IMG/VR virus record: IMGVR_UViG_3300013126_004509
Location: 1-21,914 of that record
From: a virus
Strand: one strand, 5' to 3'
DNA length: 21,914 nucleotides
Positions 196-18,810 of this stretch are shown one piece after another (within the stretch, counting starts at the first letter, position 1; each line of letters opens with the position of its first letter). The notes beneath the pieces were generated by a model, which was not told where the DNA came from, did no database searches, and saw nothing but the letters and a program-made list of their open reading frames with translations. The position numbers and the translations under genes are program-made.

Positions 196-1845
196 ATGGC
201 GGGATTTATAGATCCAATACAACCTAACAGTGCTTTCGGTACAATACTAAGAAGTCTTTCACAGCTTAGTAGATTTGGGATGAAGTATGAGGATATGGTT
301 GTGAGAAACTCTCAAGCCATTGGAAAAACTGAATCCCAGTTCTGGAATCAGGAAGGAACTGGATTTACAGAGGATGATGCTTTTTACTGGACTGTCTCAC
401 ACGCAGATACTAAGGTTAGAAAGTATATAGCTTATTTTGATAGAGATTATGTAGATAAAAGAAATTTCCTAAGGAAATTCTCACTTAATGGTGAAATTGA
501 ATTTATTCTAGATACCGTAACTGACGAGTCTGTTGTTTACGACGATAAGAATTATTTTGCTTATCCGGAGATAAAAAACCTAGACATATCTGACAAAGTC
601 AAGGATAAGCTTATGGAAAATTTCTATAGGATATATCACCTTTTTAATTTTCAGGAGAGTATATTGGCTTGGCAAATCTTTAGACAACTGTTAATAGATG
701 GCTTTTTAGCTTACGAAATAATATATGATAGTAGAGGTAAGGAGATTATAGGATTTAAGGAATTAGATGCTACATCACTCCAGCCAATGGTCGAAAAAGT
801 CGGAGAAGGTGATTTTCAGCAAGTGTGGGTTCAGTATCCTAAGAATCCTCAGATGACCAGAAAACTTAAGAATGAACAGGTCATCTATATCTCCTACGCT
901 AAGGGGAATACTATATCTAGAGTTAGCTACGTTGAAAGATTAGTTAGGTCCTATAATATTCTGAAGATCATGGAGAATAGCAGGATTATATGGAACGTTA
1001 TGAATGCTTCGTATAGATTGAAATTCATAATTCCAATCGGTACGCAATCTCCGCAGAAAGCCATGCAAACACTAGGGCAGATCATGTCTTACCATAAGGA
1101 GGAAATAGCTATCAACGATAATTCCGGAGAATTGACTATAAACGGTAGACCGAAAATACAGTTCTATAAGAATTATCTGTTTCCTGAAAAAGATGGGGTT
1201 TCTCCAACTATCGAGACCCTTAATGCAGCGGGTCCTGATTTTAATATAATGGACAATGTTCTTTATTTCTTTAACAAGTTAAAGCAAGATTCTAAGATAC
1301 CATACGCAAGATTTGTTTATAGAGGGGGTACCCCTGCAAACAACCAGGTAAGCATCGATGCTCTAGAGAGAGACGAGATTAGATTTGAAAAATTCTTAGC
1401 TAGATTAAGATCGATATACCAGGAGATATTAGTTAAGCCTCTTTATATCCAGATGTGTCTAGATTATCCAGACCTCATAAAAGATAGAAGCTTTAAAACA
1501 AATCTGGGACTTAAATTTGTAAGAGAAAGCGAATTTAATGATCTTGTAGAATTAGCTAATCTTGTTAAAAGGGGGGATTTTGTAAAAGCGCTTGCAGAAA
1601 TGAAGGTCAAGGTAGGTGAAGAAGAGCAGCCATATTTCGATAAGGACTTTCTGATACAGAGATTTTTAAGGCTAACCCCAGACCAGATAGAGACAAATCA
1701 GTCCTATAAAGAGAAAGAGGCTAAAGAAGCGGAAAAGAAGAAAGGCGAGGGCGGAACCGAAGGGGCAGCTGAAGGAGAAGCAGCACCAGCCGAAGGAGGA
1801 GGAGAAGAGGGAGGCGGTGAAGAAGCGGAACAAGTAACATTATAA
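196..1845 (+). CDS. 20: Portal vertex protein, T4 gp20-like
   Basis: At 549 residues it is close to T4 gp20 (524). The portal forms the dodecameric ring at the unique head vertex: it nucleates prohead assembly, docks the terminase and passes DNA. Family-like blocks are visible: an N-terminal segment around residues 97-115 (GEIEFILDTVTDESVVYD) that parallels the conserved gp20 region preceding the wing, and a stem/clip region around 340-410 with a MDNVLYF..KL...KIP.AR pattern starting at M352, followed by the RDE...F..RLR pattern typical of gp20. The C-terminal 60 residues are Glu/Gly/Ala/Lys-rich low complexity. The start ATG at 196 sits 11 bp after the stop of a related gene. A strong hairpin terminator lies just downstream. 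Confidence 0.9.
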   Translation: MAGFIDPIQPNSAFGTILRSLSQLSRFGMKYEDMVVRNSQAIGKTESQFWNQEGTGFTEDDAFYWTVSHADTKVRKYIAYFDRDYVDKRNFLRKFSLNGEIEFILDTVTDESVVYDDKNYFAYPEIKNLDISDKVKDKLMENFYRIYHLFNFQESILAWQIFRQLLIDGFLAYEIIYDSRGKEIIGFKELDATSLQPMVEKVGEGDFQQVWVQYPKNPQMTRKLKNEQVIYISYAKGNTISRVSYVERLVRSYNILKIMENSRIIWNVMNASYRLKFIIPIGTQSPQKAMQTLGQIMSYHKEEIAINDNSGELTINGRPKIQFYKNYLFPEKDGVSPTIETLNAAGPDFNIMDNVLYFFNKLKQDSKIPYARFVYRGGTPANNQVSIDALERDEIRFEKFLARLRSIYQEILVKPLYIQMCLDYPDLIKDRSFKTNLGLKFVRESEFNDLVELANLVKRGDFVKALAEMKVKVGEEEQPYFDKDFLIQRFLRLTPDQIETNQSYKEKEAKEAEKKKGEGGTEGAAEGEAAPAEGGGEEGGGEEAEQVTL

Positions 1846-9403: not shown

Positions 9404-10192
9404 GTGGTTGTTAGCTATTTTAATTTCATAAAAGAATCGGAATCTACAGATTCGCCTTTTTATAAAAAAGAACTCTGCCCTTTATTCTGGGAAAGGGAAG
9501 GCGATGAAAAAAATCCAGAATGGAAGCTGGATCCCCTTGTAGGAAAAAAGCTTCTGGATATAGCAAACGACTTTATAGACGAGAGTTCCGACGTTCTCAA
9601 AAAGAAGGACGTGATAGACATTCAATTAGTTGGATCACTAACAGGATATAACTGGACCCAGTACTCTGACCTCGATCTCCATATTATAGTTAACTTCAAG
9701 GATATGGGTGACGACGAAAAGATGATAGATTATGCAATGTATGGACTGAAATTTTCATGGAATACCAAGCATGATATAATCATGAGAGGACATGATGTTG
9801 AGATAGCGGTTCAAGACGAAGGATCTGAAAGCTACATTTCCACCGTTTATTCACTTAGCAAGAAAAAGTGGATAAAAAAGCCCAAATATTCACCTCCGAA
9901 GATAGATGAATTTATGGTCAATAAGAAATTCAATACTCTAGCTTATGATATAAACAAGCTGGAGAATAAACTTGTAATTTCTAATATTTTCCCCAATAAC
10001 CCAAAGCCTCTGTATAAAATGGCTTCTAAATTAAAATCCAGAATAATAAAGATGAGAAAAGAGTCTCTTGCAGAGGGAGGTGAATTTTCGGTTGGTAATC
10101 TGGTCTTCAAAAAGCTCAGAGCTGAGGGATATATAGGTAAATTGATAGACCTCATCACGAAGTCATACGATAAAATATATAGTATAAAATAA
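9404..10192 (+). CDS. Nucleotidyltransferase-fold protein with head-protein-type leader
   Basis: 262 residues. The polymerase-beta-like nucleotidyltransferase signature is clear: G77-S78, then S88-D89-L90-D91-L92-H93, and a third acidic position in HDVEIAVQD (D131/E133). These proteins transfer NMP groups to nucleic acids, small molecules or proteins; the substrate here is unknown. Relatives occur as uncharacterised proteins in other T4-like phages. The N-terminus MVVSYFNFIKES carries the F-x-x-[F/Y]..I-K-E pattern shared with other head-module proteins, so it may be packaged and trimmed after E11. The GTG start is forced because an in-frame TAA lies at 9386 and no ATG follows nearby. A promoter-like box precedes it, and the C-terminal half is Lys-rich and helical. 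Confidence 0.82.
   Translation: MVVSYFNFIKESESTDSPFYKKELCPLFWEREGDEKNPEWKLDPLVGKKLLDIANDFIDESSDVLKKKDVIDIQLVGSLTGYNWTQYSDLDLHIIVNFKDMGDDEKMIDYAMYGLKFSWNTKHDIIMRGHDVEIAVQDEGSESYISTVYSLSKKKWIKKPKYSPPKIDEFMVNKKFNTLAYDINKLENKLVISNIFPNNPKPLYKMASKLKSRIIKMRKESLAEGGEFSVGNLVFKKLRAEGYIGKLIDLITKSYDKIYSIK
10128..10135 (+). promoter_or_regulatory. GATATATA box inside the upstream gene, possible promoter for the 877-aa gene
   Basis: The octamer GATATATA followed by GG lies in the end of the nucleotidyltransferase-like gene, 70 bp before the ATG at 10206. The spacing is longer than for the other boxes, so it may be chance coding sequence (GYIG codons). Confidence 0.2.
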
Positions 10193-10205: not shown

Positions 10206-12839
10206 ATGCTTACAATAATCCCAAATGGAACTTTAAAGAAGGGTGATCCCTTTCCTATGATAGACGTACCAACCGACGTAACTGGGACTGATTATACTGA
10301 CTTTGAACTAGAGGACTATCAATGGTGGGCTTATAGTAAATCCTTTAATGATTGGCTTAAGACATCCGGAAGATCTTGGAAAGCTTCCGAATCGGAACAC
10401 TCTAAGGAAATAGAGGCATTAGTCGAAAAATGGAAAACCGAAAAAATAAAGGACGGTAATCCTGTAATGTCATTTGCAGAATTTATTAAAGAATCTCTCA
10501 GTTTCAAGTACGATAAGGATCTAAAAAGCATATTTGAGGAGGGAGAGGCTGACGGAAGTAACGTATCTGAAGGAACCGGGATAACGCAAGAGCAACAAAT
10601 TAAATTTTTATTTGCCTACAATAAGCTTCTAAAACAAGGAGCAATACAGACGACATTTGATACAAACTCCGATTTTAACAGTGGCGACGAGAAAGCATTT
10701 TTCTTGACCCTGCATTTAAAAGACGATAACGAAGAGGCTCTTAATCTTAAGGGTGTAAAATTTATATCGAAATCGTCTGAAACCGGAGGAGCAGGGAAGC
10801 TAGCTTCAGCCAAAGAAATGTACCCTGGACCATATGAGATCCCGCAAGAGGCCTCATCTAATTATCTAGTAACTAAGTTTCAACAGGATCTAACATCCAT
10901 AAGTATATGGGCAGCGGGTTTAATTTCCAGTTGGGGGATATTTACAGTTGCAGCCTCCGTTGCAGCTCCATTTTTATTTTATAGAGTTCTAAACGCCTGG
11001 CAATTTTCCTCAGCTGTTTCAGCAATAGGTAAGTCCGGAGGGTCAAACGCAGCTAAAAGTATAGCGGATCTTCTAAGAGGTGGGAAGGCAGCTAAAAATG
11101 CTAGGAAGGGAGCAGGAGTTTTTGGTAGACTTGGAAAGATCGGAACTTTTGTATTTAAAGAAGGACTAGGTACTGTTAAAGGTTTTAAATACGCTAGTCA
11201 GGCTTGGAAGATGAGCTCAAAAATAAAGACTGCTGGTAGAGTGCTTAATGCCGGTAAAGCTTTCCTGAGGGGTGTAGGTGCTTCTGCAACGAGAGCTATA
11301 CCTGTAGTTGGTTGGGTTCTTCTAGCCGTTGATGCTGTGGGCTCTATGATAAACTGGTACAGCGACAATCAAGCTCCTACTCCAGATGAGGCACTAGAGG
11401 CTTTCGATGCTAAACTAACATTTTCTCCAACGATGGTTAAAGTCGGAGAATCTATAGTTTTGTGCTGGTCCCAACCTGATAATTCAGCTTGGGGAGCAGC
11501 ATTATCCTTTGTTGTCTCGAATATGGGAGAGACGAGAACAGTAATGGAAATGGTGAAAATAATGGACGATGTGAATGGTTATTCACTTTTCATATTGCTT
11601 TCTGCAAATTCGGAATCCCTAAATGAACAATTGAAGAACAATCTTCTTACACTGATAGCTATATCTAACTCATCCAATCTAGAGCAGGGTATTATAGACA
11701 ACCCAGATTTTTCAGGAAGAATCTGTTCCGTTTCTAGACAGGATGTCGATGCGGAGGGAAATAGCATTGAGGTCCCATTTGATTTCCAGGGAGCCTGTAA
11801 TTGGGAGACCCTAGTAAAAGCGGTAGAGGAATCAGAGGGTGTTTTATTCAAAGCTGATCCGAATGCTCCGGAAACTTATGAATTTAATTTCGAAGACATG
11901 GACGGCGACAAGATAAACGTTGTTGGCACCCTGGTAACAGACAGTGATCTTGCCAATCTTACTAGCGATGATATTCAAAGGATATTTTATGGCGGTATAG
12001 ACGTAGATAGTGACGGTAATGCTAAGATAAAAGATGACGAAGAAACAGGGGAGCCTGAAGAAACGGAAGAAACCGTTAGTGAAAAATCTAAAGTGGTTTC
12101 TTTTGATAGTTTTTCTGTTGGGATTTTGAATGAGGAAAATCCTGCTGAAGGGGGAGGAGAAAATATCGATAGTGTTTTGGACGCATATACGCAGCCAGCT
12201 ATGCTAGCTATTTATGTCTGTGACAAGCCACAGAATAAAGCTTATGCAAGCAAAGAGATTGGCAAAAAGAAGAAACTTCCATTGTTTACTAATTTTGCTA
12301 TAAATCCGGATGATTATAATGCTAAGCCTGGTGATCCTATAGAGGTTTCAACAAACAGCACTGAGCAGATAGAAGATCCTAGAGCGGGATACGTCGAACA
12401 GAAGGAGGGCGAGACCGTTGAAAGAAATCCTATAGATACGGAAGATCCTACAAAAGTAGAAGGTGGAGGTGAGGAAGGAGCTGAAAAAGTACAAGCAGGC
12501 GGTGAAAAAATACAAGCTCCCGATATAGTCAGAAAGGAGAGAAGAAACACAACTATCATTAAGGATAAGGATAAAGACGGTGGTGTTAATATGATGGATG
12601 AATTCGTATCCGATGACGACAAGGAGATTTTGGGTATTAATAATTGGGATAGCATAACGATGGTCAAGGTTAAATACGACAAGAATAATCCAGATCTACC
12701 AATTAAAATTATACTAAGAAATAAAAACGCAGACTTTATGGATAGATCCAGAGAGTACACTAAAGAGGATGGGGAATCATTCGATGTAGCGAAAAAATTG
12801 GTAGGTAGCGCTCAAAGTAACCTAGAAGTTAAGAAATAA
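10206..12839 (+). CDS. Large virion protein with membrane-active region and EF-hand-like loops
   Basis: 877 residues, no family recognised. Four parts are visible. Residues 1-96 are mixed helical and end in SFAEFIKE (89-96), the leader-like motif also seen at the N-termini of neighbours. Residues about 97-390 hold two hydrophobic stretches (about 232-262 and 364-386, the second with a PVVGWVLLAVDAVG pattern) flanking a Gly/Ala/Lys-rich amphipathic segment, as in pore-forming or membrane-inserting proteins. Residues 390-643 look beta-rich and end in a second leader-like motif with ILNE (640-643). Residues 644-877 are acidic, Gly/Glu-rich. EF-hand-type loops occur at 599-610 (DVDSDGNAKIKD) and 787-798 (DKDKDGGVNMMD). 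It could be a polyprotein cut by the prohead protease, with an ejected membrane-active middle. That is inference; an ordinary structural protein is the alternative. Confidence 0.75.
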   Translation: MLTIIPNGTLKKGDPFPMIDVPTDVTGTDYTDFELEDYQWWAYSKSFNDWLKTSGRSWKASESEHSKEIEALVEKWKTEKIKDGNPVMSFAEFIKESLSFKYDKDLKSIFEEGEADGSNVSEGTGITQEQQIKFLFAYNKLLKQGAIQTTFDTNSDFNSGDEKAFFLTLHLKDDNEEALNLKGVKFISKSSETGGAGKLASAKEMYPGPYEIPQEASSNYLVTKFQQDLTSISIWAAGLISSWGIFTVAASVAAPFLFYRVLNAWQFSSAVSAIGKSGGSNAAKSIADLLRGGKAAKNARKGAGVFGRLGKIGTFVFKEGLGTVKGFKYASQAWKMSSKIKTAGRVLNAGKAFLRGVGASATRAIPVVGWVLLAVDAVGSMINWYSDNQAPTPDEALEAFDAKLTFSPTMVKVGESIVLCWSQPDNSAWGAALSFVVSNMGETRTVMEMVKIMDDVNGYSLFILLSANSESLNEQLKNNLLTLIAISNSSNLEQGIIDNPDFSGRICSVSRQDVDAEGNSIEVPFDFQGACNWETLVKAVEESEGVLFKADPNAPETYEFNFEDMDGDKINVVGTLVTDSDLANLTSDDIQRIFYGGIDVDSDGNAKIKDDEETGEPEETEETVSEKSKVVSFDSFSVGILNEENPAEGGGENIDSVLDAYTQPAMLAIYVCDKPQNKAYASKEIGKKKKLPLFTNFAINPDDYNAKPGDPIEVSTNSTEQIEDPRAGYVEQKEGETVERNPIDTEDPTKVEGGGEEGAEKVQAGGEKIQAPDIVRKERRNTTIIKDKDKDGGVNMMDEFVSDDDKEILGINNWDSITMVKVKYDKNNPDLPIKIILRNKNADFMDRSREYTKEDGESFDVAKKLVGSAQSNLEVKK

Positions 12840-12896: not shown

Positions 12897-14927
12897 ATGG
12901 AATACTCTAAAACAATAAATGAAAATCTGGTCTTTATCTTAGATAAGCAAGATTTTATTCTTGAGTCTAAGAAATCTGGAAGCGACGATTACGTTCTAGA
13001 GGGAATTGCGGCAGTTTTTCAGAAGGAGAACAATAACAATAGAATCTATATGGCTGAGGATTATCTTCCTCACCTTAATTATCTTAAGGATAAGATCAAG
13101 CAAAAAAGATTGCTTGGTGAACTAGATCATCCTGAGAAATTTGACGTCTCTTTAAAAAATATTTCACACATAATAGAGGATCTTAATTACGATAAGAATA
13201 ACAACACAATCAGAATTAAGGTTAGACTATTAGATACACCAGCTGGACAAATAGCTAAAAAATTAGTCGATGCTGGAGTTCCTATTTCTATTTCATCTAG
13301 AGCAGCAGGAAATGTTGGGCCAGATAAAAGAGTAGAAATAAAGAAAATTTTCACTTATGATCTTGTAGCTGATCCTGGATTTCAAAATGCTCAGCTTGAA
13401 AGAGTTTATGAGGGTGCTGGTTTCACAGAGACTGACATTAGAAAAATAACCGGTAAGGATTCGGTAATTTCAGACCTAATATGCATAAATGAAAGTCTAG
13501 GATTAGAAAATAATTCTAGCACGAAGATATATAAGGTTGAAAATAACGATGAATTCGACAAATTGATCAACAACACAGAAAAAAACAAAAAAACCCTTAT
13601 GGAGAAGAATAACGAATTTGTAACAGCAGATGAGCTTAATCAGTATTCTATTTTCTTGAAAAAAGAAATGGATACTATGAAATCTGCTATTGAGACGGTA
13701 AAAGAACAAAAAGTTTCTTTAGACGAGTCTGAAGTTAAAGAAGATGTTTCTGGATATTGCAGAATTCTTGAAGAAAGAATTCAAAAGCTAGAGAAATATT
13801 CTGATTATCTTGCGGAAAATTTAGAAAATTCAGTTAAATATGGTGAATATCTTGCTGAGAATCTGGATAATTCCATTTCTTACTCCAAGTATTTAGCTGA
13901 AAATTTGGATAAGTCAATTTCTTATTCTAAGTATTTAGCTGAAAATGTAGACAAGGGTATTTCTTACACTGAGTATGTTGCTGAGAATGTTGATAACTCG
14001 ATCGAGTATTCTAAGTATTTAGCTGAAAAATTGGATCAAAGCGTTCAGTATTCAGAATACTTAGCTGAAAGCGTTGAAAAGAACATAAACTATTCAGAAT
14101 ATTTAGCTGAAAATATCGATGATGGAATTCAATATTCAGAGTACATAGCAGAGAATTTAGATAAGGGTATTTCTTATGCTGAGTACGTGGGCGAAAACCT
14201 AGAAAGAGGAATTTCTTACACCGAATATGTTGCTGAGAATTTGAGTAAATCAATATCTTATTCAGAGTATTTAGCTGAAAGCTTAAACAAAAACATCGAT
14301 TCTACCGAGAAGCTAAACGAGAAAGTTAGTAGAAATATTAGCTACACCGAATACATCGCAGAATCACTAAATGACGAGTTTGGTAATAAAGACCAAGCAC
14401 AAGCTCTAAAAGAGTCTATCGAGTACAGCGGAAGACTAAGTTCAGAAACTTCTGGCTTTGCTGGAAATTATGACGATTTAGAATCCAAAATTGACAATTT
14501 GATCGCTAAGGTTCAAACCCAAAAAACTGAGATCAACGAAGCAGCTAAAACTGCATATAATGCCGAAACACAAAAGGCGACAACACTACTTACCGAATCT
14601 TTGAATGACGATAAAGTGTTCAACACAGGTATGAAATTCATTGACGAAATGCCAGCAGAATATGTTCAGGTATGGGAATCACTTAACGAAGGACATAAGC
14701 AATCTATTGTTGCTCAGTCTAACTTCTATAAGCTAGATACACCATATCAGATCAGAAATTTCTGGTCTACCCGTCAATTAGGAGTTTCTCCAATTGGACT
14801 TCAAAAGCTAGATGAGAGTGAAAACACATCAGACAATGGAAATCAAGCTCAAAATCCAGGTTACAGCAATGCTTACATGGATATGATAGCTAGATCTCTA
14901 GAGTCAAGATTTCAAACAAACAGATAA
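12897..14927 (+). CDS. 21/22: Prohead protease fused to scaffold core protein (gp21+gp22-like)
   Basis: 676 residues. Residues about 30-175 are a T4 gp21-type prohead protease (peptidase family S77): GELDHP with H78 and SISSRAAG with S133/S134 supply the expected His and Ser, followed by the conserved YDLVADPGF (about 154-162). T4 gp21 is 212 residues and separate. Here the frame continues from about 235 into a Glu/Lys-rich helical region, fourteen 14-residue repeats (301-496), and a C-terminal domain ending in a YMDMIARSLESRF segment reminiscent of the gp22 scaffold terminus. The major capsid gene follows 17 bp later, so one frame occupies the gp21-gp22 slot of T4. The junction contains two 7-A runs followed by ATG at 13599; a one-base shift there would separate the two proteins, so true fusion, frameshifting and sequencing error all need considering. 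Confidence 0.88.
   Translation: MEYSKTINENLVFILDKQDFILESKKSGSDDYVLEGIAAVFQKENNNNRIYMAEDYLPHLNYLKDKIKQKRLLGELDHPEKFDVSLKNISHIIEDLNYDKNNNTIRIKVRLLDTPAGQIAKKLVDAGVPISISSRAAGNVGPDKRVEIKKIFTYDLVADPGFQNAQLERVYEGAGFTETDIRKITGKDSVISDLICINESLGLENNSSTKIYKVENNDEFDKLINNTEKNKKTLMEKNNEFVTADELNQYSIFLKKEMDTMKSAIETVKEQKVSLDESEVKEDVSGYCRILEERIQKLEKYSDYLAENLENSVKYGEYLAENLDNSISYSKYLAENLDKSISYSKYLAENVDKGISYTEYVAENVDNSIEYSKYLAEKLDQSVQYSEYLAESVEKNINYSEYLAENIDDGIQYSEYIAENLDKGISYAEYVGENLERGISYTEYVAENLSKSISYSEYLAESLNKNIDSTEKLNEKVSRNISYTEYIAESLNDEFGNKDQAQALKESIEYSGRLSSETSGFAGNYDDLESKIDNLIAKVQTQKTEINEAAKTAYNAETQKATTLLTESLNDDKVFNTGMKFIDEMPAEYVQVWESLNEGHKQSIVAQSNFYKLDTPYQIRNFWSTRQLGVSPIGLQKLDESENTSDNGNQAQNPGYSNAYMDMIARSLESRFQTNR
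13797..14384 (+). repeat. Fourteen tandem 42-bp coding repeats (14 aa each)
   Basis: Fourteen uninterrupted units of 14 residues in the scaffold part of the gene, consensus Y-S-E-Y-L-A-E-N-L-D-K-S-I-S. Examples are YSKYLAENLDKSIS, YTEYVAENVDNSIE and YSEYIAENLDKGIS; the 13th unit (STEKLNEKVSRNIS) is the most divergent. Twelve units keep [L/V/I]-A-E, one has V-G-E and one L-N-E. Hydrophobic residues at positions 1, 4/5, 9 and 13 suggest a long amphipathic helix. At DNA level the copies are similar but not identical, with short blocks such as AAGTATTTAGCTGAAAA recurring. Confidence 0.95.
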
Positions 14928-14944
14928 AAAAACAATTTTTAATT

Positions 14945-16687
14945 ATGAAACTAATTAACGAACAAGAGATCTACGATACCTGGTCGCCCATGATTGAGAG
15001 CAAAGCCGGTATTACAGATTCTTCTAAAAAAGCATGGTTGACTAAATATTGTCATTACCATTCATTAAACGAGTCTGCTGGTGCTTATAACACCCTTAAC
15101 GTAGTAAACGGTATGGGTACAGTTGCACCTCCAGCATTCCCAGGTATGAGCAGCTTCGTTGGCGGCGGAGGTTCAACAACACAAGCAAACTTCGGTTTCT
15201 ACAACGCTGCTAACCAAGGATCTGGTGACAAATTCCCATCTTTGCTTCCATTGGCTATCCAAGTGGCTGCTAAGACAGTTGGTTTTGACATCGTTCCTGT
15301 TATTCCAATGTCCGGTCCTACTGGTATCTTGTCTTACCTAGACTACGTATACGCTGGTGGTAAAACCAACGCTGCTACTGGTAACTTTGCTAGCGCTGCT
15401 GATGCACTTTCTGCTGCACCGTCTATGATCAAATTCCCAGTATATGAGTCAACAGCTGGTACAGGTACTACGGGTGCTACTGCTGGTACATTCACAGTGG
15501 GTACAACTTACACAATCACTAACGGTGGAGTTTTAACTTTGAAATTCGTTGGTCTTTCAAGAATCGATGGTTTCCCAATCTTCGAAATTGAGGGAATTTC
15601 AAACGGATACAACGTTGCATCTATCATTAACGGTACACCTATTAACATAGTAACTAGTAGCTTCTATACTGGTGCTACTACAGTTAACTACACAGCTCAA
15701 CTTGTAAAAGCTCTTGAAGATCACATCCAAGGTTTCTCCGGTGCTGGTTTCAACAACGACCAAAACTGGCAAGGACCTTATGTTGATGGTACTAAGACTT
15801 ACAACCCAATGTTGAGAGGAGTAGCTGAATCTGCTTACTACAACTCAATGGGTCTAAGCACCTTCACCAAGTTCGTAGAAGCTGAAACTTTCCAAGTAGC
15901 TGCTTCTGTAACCACCGAGCAAATCCAAGATTTGAACAAGCAATTTGGTATTGACGTTATCTCTATGATCGAGAATGCACTTGTTAACGAGGTTTCTCAA
16001 GCTATTAACAAGCACATCCTTTCTAGAGCTTTTGCACTAGGTTGGTCTAACCACGTACAATTCAACAACGTACAAAATCAAAACTTGAACTTGAACTTGG
16101 TTCTTGGAGGTTCTTCCTTTACTGGTAGCGCAAGCACTGGTGCTTATTACATCAACAAGCAAGATCAGGTTGTTGCTATGACAGTACCTGGAGGTCCATC
16201 TACTTCAAGCTACGAGAACTTGTCAACTTTACAAAGAAGACTGTACTCTAGAATTTTAGCTGCTGCTAACGTGGTTGCTAACCAAGGTAGAAGAGGTCCT
16301 GCTAACTTCATCGTGACTAACGCTGCTATCGCTTCTGCATTGCAGGATATCAGCCAATTCACTTTCGCTCCATTCACAAACACTCTAACTCAAAACAACG
16401 GTACTCTTTACCCAGTTGGTTCTCTAGCTGGTATGACCGTTTACGTAGATCAGAACATGAGCTACAGCGACACTAGAGTTTGTGTTGGTAGAAAAGGTGG
16501 TGACGACGAGCCAGGATTGAAATTTATGCCTTACATGATGGCTGAATCTATTCAGACTATCTCTGAAGGTACAATGTCTCCTAAGATCGCAGTTAAGTCT
16601 AGATACGCTCTAGTTGAGGCTGGTTTCTTACCAGAGACTTTGTATTTCACGTTCTTCGTGAACTTGCCTGCTGGCGGAATCGTTTAA
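14945..16687 (+). CDS. 23: Major capsid protein, T4 gp23-like
   Basis: 580 residues (T4 gp23 is 521); forms the hexamers of the head shell. Recognisable gp23 features: an N-terminal delta-like propeptide (W-x-P-x-[I/L]-E at 13-18) with a likely cleavage site after L41-N42-E43, the FDIVPVIPMSGPTG segment at 114-127, the AETFQVAASVTTEQIQDL..QFGIDVISMIENAL helix region, GRRGPANFIVTN starting at 448, and the C-terminal GMTVYVDQ ... GLKFMPYMMAE block. A Gly/Thr-rich beta stretch around 155-240 is probably a surface insertion domain. Codons shift to C-ending forms (AAC, TTC, ATC) compared with neighbours, as expected for the most highly expressed gene. It is followed at once by a very strong terminator. 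Confidence 0.95.
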   Translation: MKLINEQEIYDTWSPMIESKAGITDSSKKAWLTKYCHYHSLNESAGAYNTLNVVNGMGTVAPPAFPGMSSFVGGGGSTTQANFGFYNAANQGSGDKFPSLLPLAIQVAAKTVGFDIVPVIPMSGPTGILSYLDYVYAGGKTNAATGNFASAADALSAAPSMIKFPVYESTAGTGTTGATAGTFTVGTTYTITNGGVLTLKFVGLSRIDGFPIFEIEGISNGYNVASIINGTPINIVTSSFYTGATTVNYTAQLVKALEDHIQGFSGAGFNNDQNWQGPYVDGTKTYNPMLRGVAESAYYNSMGLSTFTKFVEAETFQVAASVTTEQIQDLNKQFGIDVISMIENALVNEVSQAINKHILSRAFALGWSNHVQFNNVQNQNLNLNLVLGGSSFTGSASTGAYYINKQDQVVAMTVPGGPSTSSYENLSTLQRRLYSRILAAANVVANQGRRGPANFIVTNAAIASALQDISQFTFAPFTNTLTQNNGTLYPVGSLAGMTVYVDQNMSYSDTRVCVGRKGGDDEPGLKFMPYMMAESIQTISEGTMSPKIAVKSRYALVEAGFLPETLYFTFFVNLPAGGIV

Positions 16688-17940: not shown

Positions 17941-18810
17941 ATGGTTTTAAATTTTAAACAATGGGAAAACTTAAATGAAGCTAGCGTTCTAGATTCTATT
18001 AAGAACTGGCTCAGTGGCAACTTCGGAGGATCTGTTGAAAAAATCGACAGCCTCATAGCGCAGATGAAAAAATCTGAAACTGGGTATATTCAGGAGTGGG
18101 AGGATATTGTTTCTGAAATCGATCAACTTGAAATAAAATTGCAAAGTGATATAGATGCAGCTACAGAGAAAGCTACTAATCGAATGATAGAGAGAAAGAA
18201 ACAGCTTCTGAGCACTATAAAGAATAAGAAAGCAGTGGAGATAGAGAATGCTCTTAAGAAGGCAGATTCTATAATAAAATCCAATAAGAGACTTAGAGAA
18301 TACTGGGAAAAAGAGAAAGCACAGGCCGATGTTGATATAGCGAAAAGAATGTATGATATAGCTAAATCCTTAGGTGATGATACCATGACTAGCGATCTCT
18401 ATAACAGATACAAGAAATTCCAGGATAAATCAACGAAGTTGCAGAGTTCTTTGTCCAAAAAATACGGTAAGAAATTTGCGGAGGGAGATTTTAAATCAGA
18501 TGCTAAAGAAACCGGGGACGATAGACTAAAGGTCATTGCTAAAAAACCTCTGGGGGATTTCAACTCAGACGTGAAAGGAATGGATCCAAAAGACGCTAAA
18601 GAGCTTTTTAAGATCTGTACCGAAGAGAGAAACAAGCTCTATGTTGACATGGATTTGGAGATAGCTAAAATAGAGGAGGAGATGAAGAGCAAGAACGATA
18701 GGGATTTTGAAATCGAGGGCGAAAGAAGAATAAAGAAGATCAAGGAGAAATATCTTGAAAAAATAAGAGAATATAGATCTAAAATAACTTTGGCTAAGAG
18801 ATACTCTTAA
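17941..18810 (+). CDS. Coiled-coil head-module protein, paralogue 2
   Basis: 289 residues of charged helical sequence. The N-terminus MVLNFKQWENLNEAS carries the clearest leader of the set, with L-N-E before Ala, matching the T4 gp21 cleavage pattern. The central RLREYWE motif (117-123) and the following A-x-x-D-x-x-x-A-K helix match the preceding gene, as does a KKP segment near 200; the N-terminal region before the motif is 34 residues shorter. No signal peptide, membrane segment or enzyme motif is present. It starts 4 bp after the stop of its paralogue. Together they look like a duplicated packaged or core protein; the function is unknown. Confidence 0.8.
   Translation: MVLNFKQWENLNEASVLDSIKNWLSGNFGGSVEKIDSLIAQMKKSETGYIQEWEDIVSEIDQLEIKLQSDIDAATEKATNRMIERKKQLLSTIKNKKAVEIENALKKADSIIKSNKRLREYWEKEKAQADVDIAKRMYDIAKSLGDDTMTSDLYNRYKKFQDKSTKLQSSLSKKYGKKFAEGDFKSDAKETGDDRLKVIAKKPLGDFNSDVKGMDPKDAKELFKICTEERNKLYVDMDLEIAKIEEEMKSKNDRDFEIEGERRIKKIKEKYLEKIREYRSKITLAKRYS

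Follow-up and report, generated by a model that had tools for sequence, protein, structure and literature searches.

A prohead protease fused to a scaffold-like protein

The window, by which we mean the whole 21,914-nucleotide stretch of viral DNA analysed here (IMG/VR record IMGVR_UViG_3300013126_004509, positions 1 to 21,914), has a head-gene context given by a gp20-type portal protein (196..1845, + strand; Portal_T4, 1.2e-63) and a gp23-type major capsid protein (14945..16687, +; Pfam Gp23, 3.4e-41). The capsid gene lies directly downstream of an open reading frame of 676 residues (12897..14927, +) in which a protease domain and an array of fourteen short repeats share a single frame. With little reservation, we predict this ORF to be a prohead protease (Peptidase_S77/S80) fused to a scaffold-like protein: it matches Peptidase_S77 (5.3e-9, 36.3 bits, cut-off 27) and Peptidase_S80 (2.1e-5, 24.3 bits, cut-off 23.4) in Pfam, and the head maturation protease family phrog_207 (6.7e-40) in PHROG. 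These matches bear out a first-pass annotation of this DNA, which had placed a gp21-type protease in the same frame as the repeats. A separate gp22 gene is absent between the fused ORF and the capsid gene, and it is the array and the C-terminus of the ORF that sit between the protease domain and the capsid gene, that is, in the gp22-type place.

The protease domain (12987..13395, +; residues ~31-166, from the Pfam and PHROG matches) contains the motifs GELDHP, SISSRAAG and TYDLVADPGF, of which GE[LF]DHP and SSRAAG are invariant in the 12 of 12 homologues aligned; from knowledge of the family, we take the catalytic His and Ser to lie in these two motifs. Among solved structures, the search yielded for the fused ORF nothing beyond a marginal match of the protease domain to T4 gp21 (5jbl, E 0.023). 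At the other end, the C-terminal region (14385..14924, +) combines extra predicted cut sites, considered below, with a block around MPxxxxxxWESLNE...NFWxTR that is conserved in the alignment of homologues.

A diverged array of fourteen units, predicted to form a helical rod

The array (13797..14384, +; residues 301-496), supported by sequence, profile and AF2 prediction, measures exactly 14 x 42 bases, and its 14-residue units, of the form Y-S-E-Y-L-A-E-N-L-D-K-S-I-S, follow one another in frame and without gaps, as had been noted at first reading; shifted by 14 residues it matches itself at 108 positions, whereas 2000 shuffles gave no more than 37 identities at any lag. The units have diverged to a mean identity of 52% in protein and 59% in DNA, which argues for an old array under selection rather than a recent tandem duplication. 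All 14 carry the triplet [LIV][AGN]E, again as first described: ten have LAE or IAE, two VAE, one VGE, and the degenerate unit 13 (STEKLNEKVSRNIS), which keeps neither tyrosine, has LNE. The equation of this triplet with the strict T4 pattern [LI]xE stands for 11 of the 14 units and fails for those with VAE or VGE.

A profile built on the repeat itself, run over about 80 proteins of relatives, picked out 857 units. Their most conserved column is E7 (97%, entropy 0.26 bits, a value slightly inflated by the profile-based unit finding, a bias common to all columns), followed by Y4 (0.47), Y1 (0.51), A6 (0.74) and I13 (1.17 bits), with the rest at 1.46-3.04 bits.

Very probably, the array is a helical rod, as the first-pass annotation had proposed for the scaffold. 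AF2 predicts the repeat stretch as one continuous helix (residues 44-255 of the modelled stretch) with moderate confidence (pLDDT about 50-78); the full-length AF2 model of the fused protein was of low confidence and too poor for use. The hydrophobic period in four homologues is 103 degrees, as in a heptad-like helix, and the rod would be roughly 29 nm long, calculated at 0.15 nm per residue. In the helix layout the hydrophobic face consists of L5, L9 and I13 and is flanked by Y1 and Y4, while E7 sits 177-179 degrees away from it, on the same side as the freely varying S14.

This geometry bears on a purely structural reading, in which the array would be a coiled-coil rod with units kept for packing and an LAE that has no role in cutting, to be removed whole or through cuts outside it (INE|S before; INE|A, LTE|S, LNE|G and LDE|S after). 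Such a rod would fit the conserved cut sites just outside the array, the reuse of the unit in genes that lack the protease (one beside collagen-like G-X-S triplets, one membrane-anchored) and the 462-kb relative LR756500, whose hydrophobic positions 5 and 9 persist in a hand alignment although E7 is kept in 6 of 11 units and lost in the other five. Against it, E7 tops the conservation of the 857 units and yet lies opposite the hydrophobic face, so that core packing does not explain its retention; nor is an E7-K11 (i+4) salt bridge general, since position 11 is Lys in just 51% of units. We consider the structural reading unlikely, if a serious contender.

Relatives and copy number

The same combination of protease and 14-mer array is found in the uncultured phages LR756500-504 and LR745206, with genomes of 462-735 kb, and the fusion recurs in many IMG/VR contigs; we place these phages in the Mahaphage clade (clade and genome sizes in PMC7162821), to which the window virus is related. 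Array-bearing homologues have 3-14 detectable units at the same place in the protein. Lak phages, among them one of 541 kb, have a related protease and an acidic stretch, with the array absent. In the freely accessible literature searched, neither the array nor the leaders discussed below turned out to be described.

These genomes permit an assessment of the first-pass suggestion that the number of units sets core length and hence head size. An unbroken helix whose units are all of one length could indeed measure, and within clades the number of units varies rather little. However, there are about 11, 12, 12, 11 and 13-14 units in the 462-, 635-, 636-, 642- and 735-kb genomes, the 11 of the 462-kb phage being degenerate, and the 541-kb Lak phage lacks the array; across the five array-bearing near-complete genomes compared, copy number shows no monotonic relation to genome size. 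A ruler function is accordingly very improbable.

Several other genes in these genomes are related to parts of the fused protein. Small paralogues of the protease in LR756501 (L079:4315-4851, -) and LR756500 (L078:4841-5245, -) are possible pseudo-proteases: GELDHP is changed to GELGYP or GELYNP and SSRAAG to RPRAAG or IRSTGTQ, so that, judged by sequence, neither catalytic motif appears to survive. LR756501 also encodes a 76-residue protein (L098:4347-4577, +) in which two repeat-like units precede a hydrophobic C-terminal segment that probably spans the membrane, and its 228-residue neighbour (L098:3659-4345, +) likewise ends in such a segment; the two could tie the core to a membrane. A 207-residue protein of the same phage (L037:9761-10384, +) combines three repeat units with collagen-like G-X-S triplets, a hint that the unit may also exist as a trimer. 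Further, the tag DPYGEE[NDE]W closes eight or more unrelated ORFs, both small and large, in the 735-kb LR756501 (e.g., in L037, L079, L088, L090, L114 and L116), and the scan of the other genomes did not find it.

Predicted cleavage sites

Directly behind the protease domain lies the predicted site INE|S (13485..13496, +; residues 197-200), which nearly all of 85 homologues share as [ILMV]NE|S-[LFY]-G. Given this conservation, it is likely the site of protease release; T4 gp21 has EITE|S at a comparable place. The capsid protein, presumed to be the main substrate, has a predicted site LNE|S (15065..15073, +; residues 41-43) of the pattern [LIM]xE|[SNDG]. An [LIM]xE site was found by pattern in 66 of 73 capsid genes, with S (30), N (29), D (6) or G (1) at P1'. 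The C-terminal region of the fused protein adds INE|A (546-548), LTE|S (565-567), LNE|G (596-598) and LDE|S (638-640); it has six [LI]xE against 1.8 in shuffles (P 0.002), an independent test, whereas shuffle P values within the array are not independent evidence, the unit being repeated.

T4 offers a direct precedent for a scaffold dense in cut sites. Its gp21 cleaves after L/I-x-E; its gp22 is broken into several fragments (PMC9026906) and ends up as small peptides (PMC9026906, PMC9958956). There are 16 [LI]xE in gp22, with 5.7 expected from shuffles, and both WLAE|N and KIAE|K are among them. The array triplets appear compatible with the probable specificity of the window protease, as judged from the capsid [LIM]xE|S/N and post-protease [ILMV]NE|S patterns. 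The first-pass annotation had named a protease that does not accept Ala at P2 or Asn at P1' as a refutation of cutting. Both residues have parallels: Ala stands at P2 in the IAE sites of T4 itself, and Asn is the commonest P1' at the leader sites described below, so that neither residue counts against the idea. On these patterns we judge it slightly the better bet that the protease cuts at many of the units. The stronger idea of a rod built to be cut every 14 residues finds no support, given that five of the 11 units in the 462-kb relative have lost E7.

The same likeness of units to substrates, together with the fusion of the array to the protease and the conserved release site between them, would also suit a decoy or tether, in which near-consensus sites keep the attached protease occupied for as long as the head is being assembled. 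However, T4 gp21 is reportedly kept inactive by its own N-terminus and not by an array of substrates (PMC9958956), and the related protease of Lak phages has no array; such a role is improbable.

The unit resembles a capsid-targeting sequence

The first-pass annotation missed the match of each unit to the capsid-targeting sequence (CTS), and this correspondence of spacing is what is new in the present analysis. The unit's Y-x-x-Y-[LIV]-x-E has the exact spacing of the T4 CTS (YQEFIAE in IPII and IPIII, which start MKTYQEFIAE|A). Genetic work on T4 assigns targeting mainly to CTS residues 4 and 7 and processing to residues 8 and 10 (PMC9026906); these four (Y, F, I, E) correspond to Y1, Y4, [LIV]5 and E7 of the repeat. 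As the units are internal (residues 301-496) and not N-terminal like the T4 CTS, we term them CTS-like. At interior rates the motif is expected in any register of about 0.45% of random 14-mers, which counts against units kept for packing alone.

The spacing is equally prominent at N-termini. We scanned the N-termini encoded by four array-bearing genomes for 150 different spacings between two aromatic residues, an aliphatic one and a Glu, with ORFs called mechanically from ATG starts. The unit spacing, (2,0,1), was the most enriched, with 84 occurrences against 10.6 expected (z 22.5; runner-up 9.6), counts that are non-independent given related genomes and paralogous leaders. By genome, it ranked first in three records (735, 636 and 374 kb) and was one of the three most enriched spacings in the 462-kb phage, which keeps CTS leaders alongside its degenerate array. 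The enrichment is absent in array-less Lak (2 vs 1.3) and in Tenacibaculum phage PTm1, a contrast between array and no-array phages that spans few lineages. In the window's nearest relatives the N-terminal excess is small (4 vs 0.9), and the test hence rests on more distant huge phages. By itself, [FLIVM]xE is weakly enriched at the N-termini of all phages, so the signal is carried by the aromatic pair. This pair is absent from the capsid cleavage sites of array phages and is thus not simply a requirement of the protease. Lak-A1 has its own recurrent leader type, MNKNIKKLLE|SLFDDD (loci L234-L253).

Examples of the leaders, a type also represented by MKYIKEYEEFLLE, are MKNIKKFIDFINE|S, MKYILEYEEFLLE|N and MKYIKEYSEFVNE|S. 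Leader logos, being selected by regular expression, fix P7, P4, P3 and P1 by construction; the informative elements are the spacing scan, P2 and P1'. At P1' the leaders of array-bearing genomes have N (23%), S (18%) or A (17%), which makes Asn as the repeat's commonest P1' unremarkable, and at P2 they have mostly Asn, whereas the repeat has Ala. In the 635-kb phage, a small ORF would read MNYEDYIAE|SLEKNISYSEYISEN... if begun at a putative ATG start, in which case its leader would itself be a repeat unit.

The window has its own candidates. A 262-residue ORF at 9404 has the CTS-like leader YFNFIKE|S (9416..9436, +), and a 289-residue ORF has the leader MVLNFKQWENLNE|A (17941..17979, +), of variant spacing. 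The 877-residue ORF at 10206-12839, which has no Pfam or PHROG match, carries an internal CTS-like site FAEFIKE|S (10473..10493, +; residues 90-96), replaced by FLDFVNE|S in its homologues, and later ILNE|E; it is a candidate for a large head precursor that is processed by cleavage.

A proposed scaffold of tandem targeting and cleavage modules

We propose, at about even confidence, that a helical core rod consists of tandem targeting and cleavage modules and that cargo leaders resemble one such unit. The fused ORF would do in one chain the work of T4 gp21 and gp22. Its array helix, amphipathic and continuous, would bundle with its fellows into the prohead core, held together during assembly by an aromatic stripe and a hydrophobic seam. 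The Y-x-x-Y-[LIV]-A-E of each unit would serve as a targeting and cleavage heptamer, making the rod a tandem of modules, and cargo with the same heptamer in an N-terminal leader would join the core as a single helix of the unit type. Once assembly is over, autocleavage at INE|S would release the protease. It would also process the capsid protein at LNE|S and cleave both leaders and rod behind the Glu, and the rod would depart as short peptides. The fusion, the gene order, the array, its conservation, the unit and leader spacing and the site patterns are read from the sequence and the helix is predicted; from these we infer the core role, the co-packing and the cleavage within the array.

The boldest element of this proposal, that cargo leaders mimic the scaffold repeat, with one unit-like helix inserting into the core and the same heptamer being cut in cargo and core, we put forward as a possibility that is on balance doubtful. 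Several points weigh against the proposal as a whole. Packing into a helix may make the units hard to cut; T4 has the CTS and yet no tandem array; the 462-kb phage combines CTS leaders with a degenerate array; leaders and repeat differ at P2; profile comparison shows no homology to gp22; and the full-length AF2 model is of low confidence. In addition, T4 gp22 is greatly in excess of gp21 (PMC9958956), a ratio that a 1:1 fusion cannot match without another scaffold. If leader mimicry is true, it would explain how the T4-type targeting sequence works and would make the head cargo of huge phages readable from sequence: applied to the first 15 residues of each protein, the leader rule yields dozens of predicted head-cargo proteins per genome. 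The array is a candidate scaffold for the largest known phages, with a testable rule that joins scaffold, leader and cut site.

Comparison with known systems

A counterpart with the same fusion is the prohead core scaffolding protein and protease of Tenacibaculum phage PTm1 (BBI90692), which is 28.6% identical to the window protein across the matched 54% and has helical-looking repeats. These are of about 16 residues with Trp; 14-mers are absent, and aromatic-pair leaders are not enriched in that phage.

With T4 gp21 and gp22 the window system shares the Peptidase_S77 domain, the gene order portal ... protease/scaffold - gp23 and a scaffold dense in [LI]xE. The T4 order is 20, 67, 68, 21, 22, 23, and in the window one ORF fills the place of 21 and 22, as a single fused chain with tandem 14-mers, unlike the T4 pair. 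Membership of the array or the C-terminus in the gp22 family was considered and rejected, as profile comparison (hhalign against a 7-member gp22 alignment) found no homology, with probabilities of 0.3 and 0.5%. The best conserved part of gp22 is EWLAEN at T4 residues 96-101 (L101), whose W97 and N101 do not vary among the 7 gp22 proteins; its likeness to the EYLAEN of the repeat is not significant by profile comparison and is a lead only.

The T4 IPII/IPIII CTS, in turn, has the form aromatic-xx-aromatic-[LIV]-x-E with the spacing of the unit, but it is a single N-terminal cargo leader in a phage that has no tandem array, whereas the window has 14 internal copies within the scaffold. By analogy, the fused ORF would work like the gp21-gp22 pair, though not as a member of the gp22 family.
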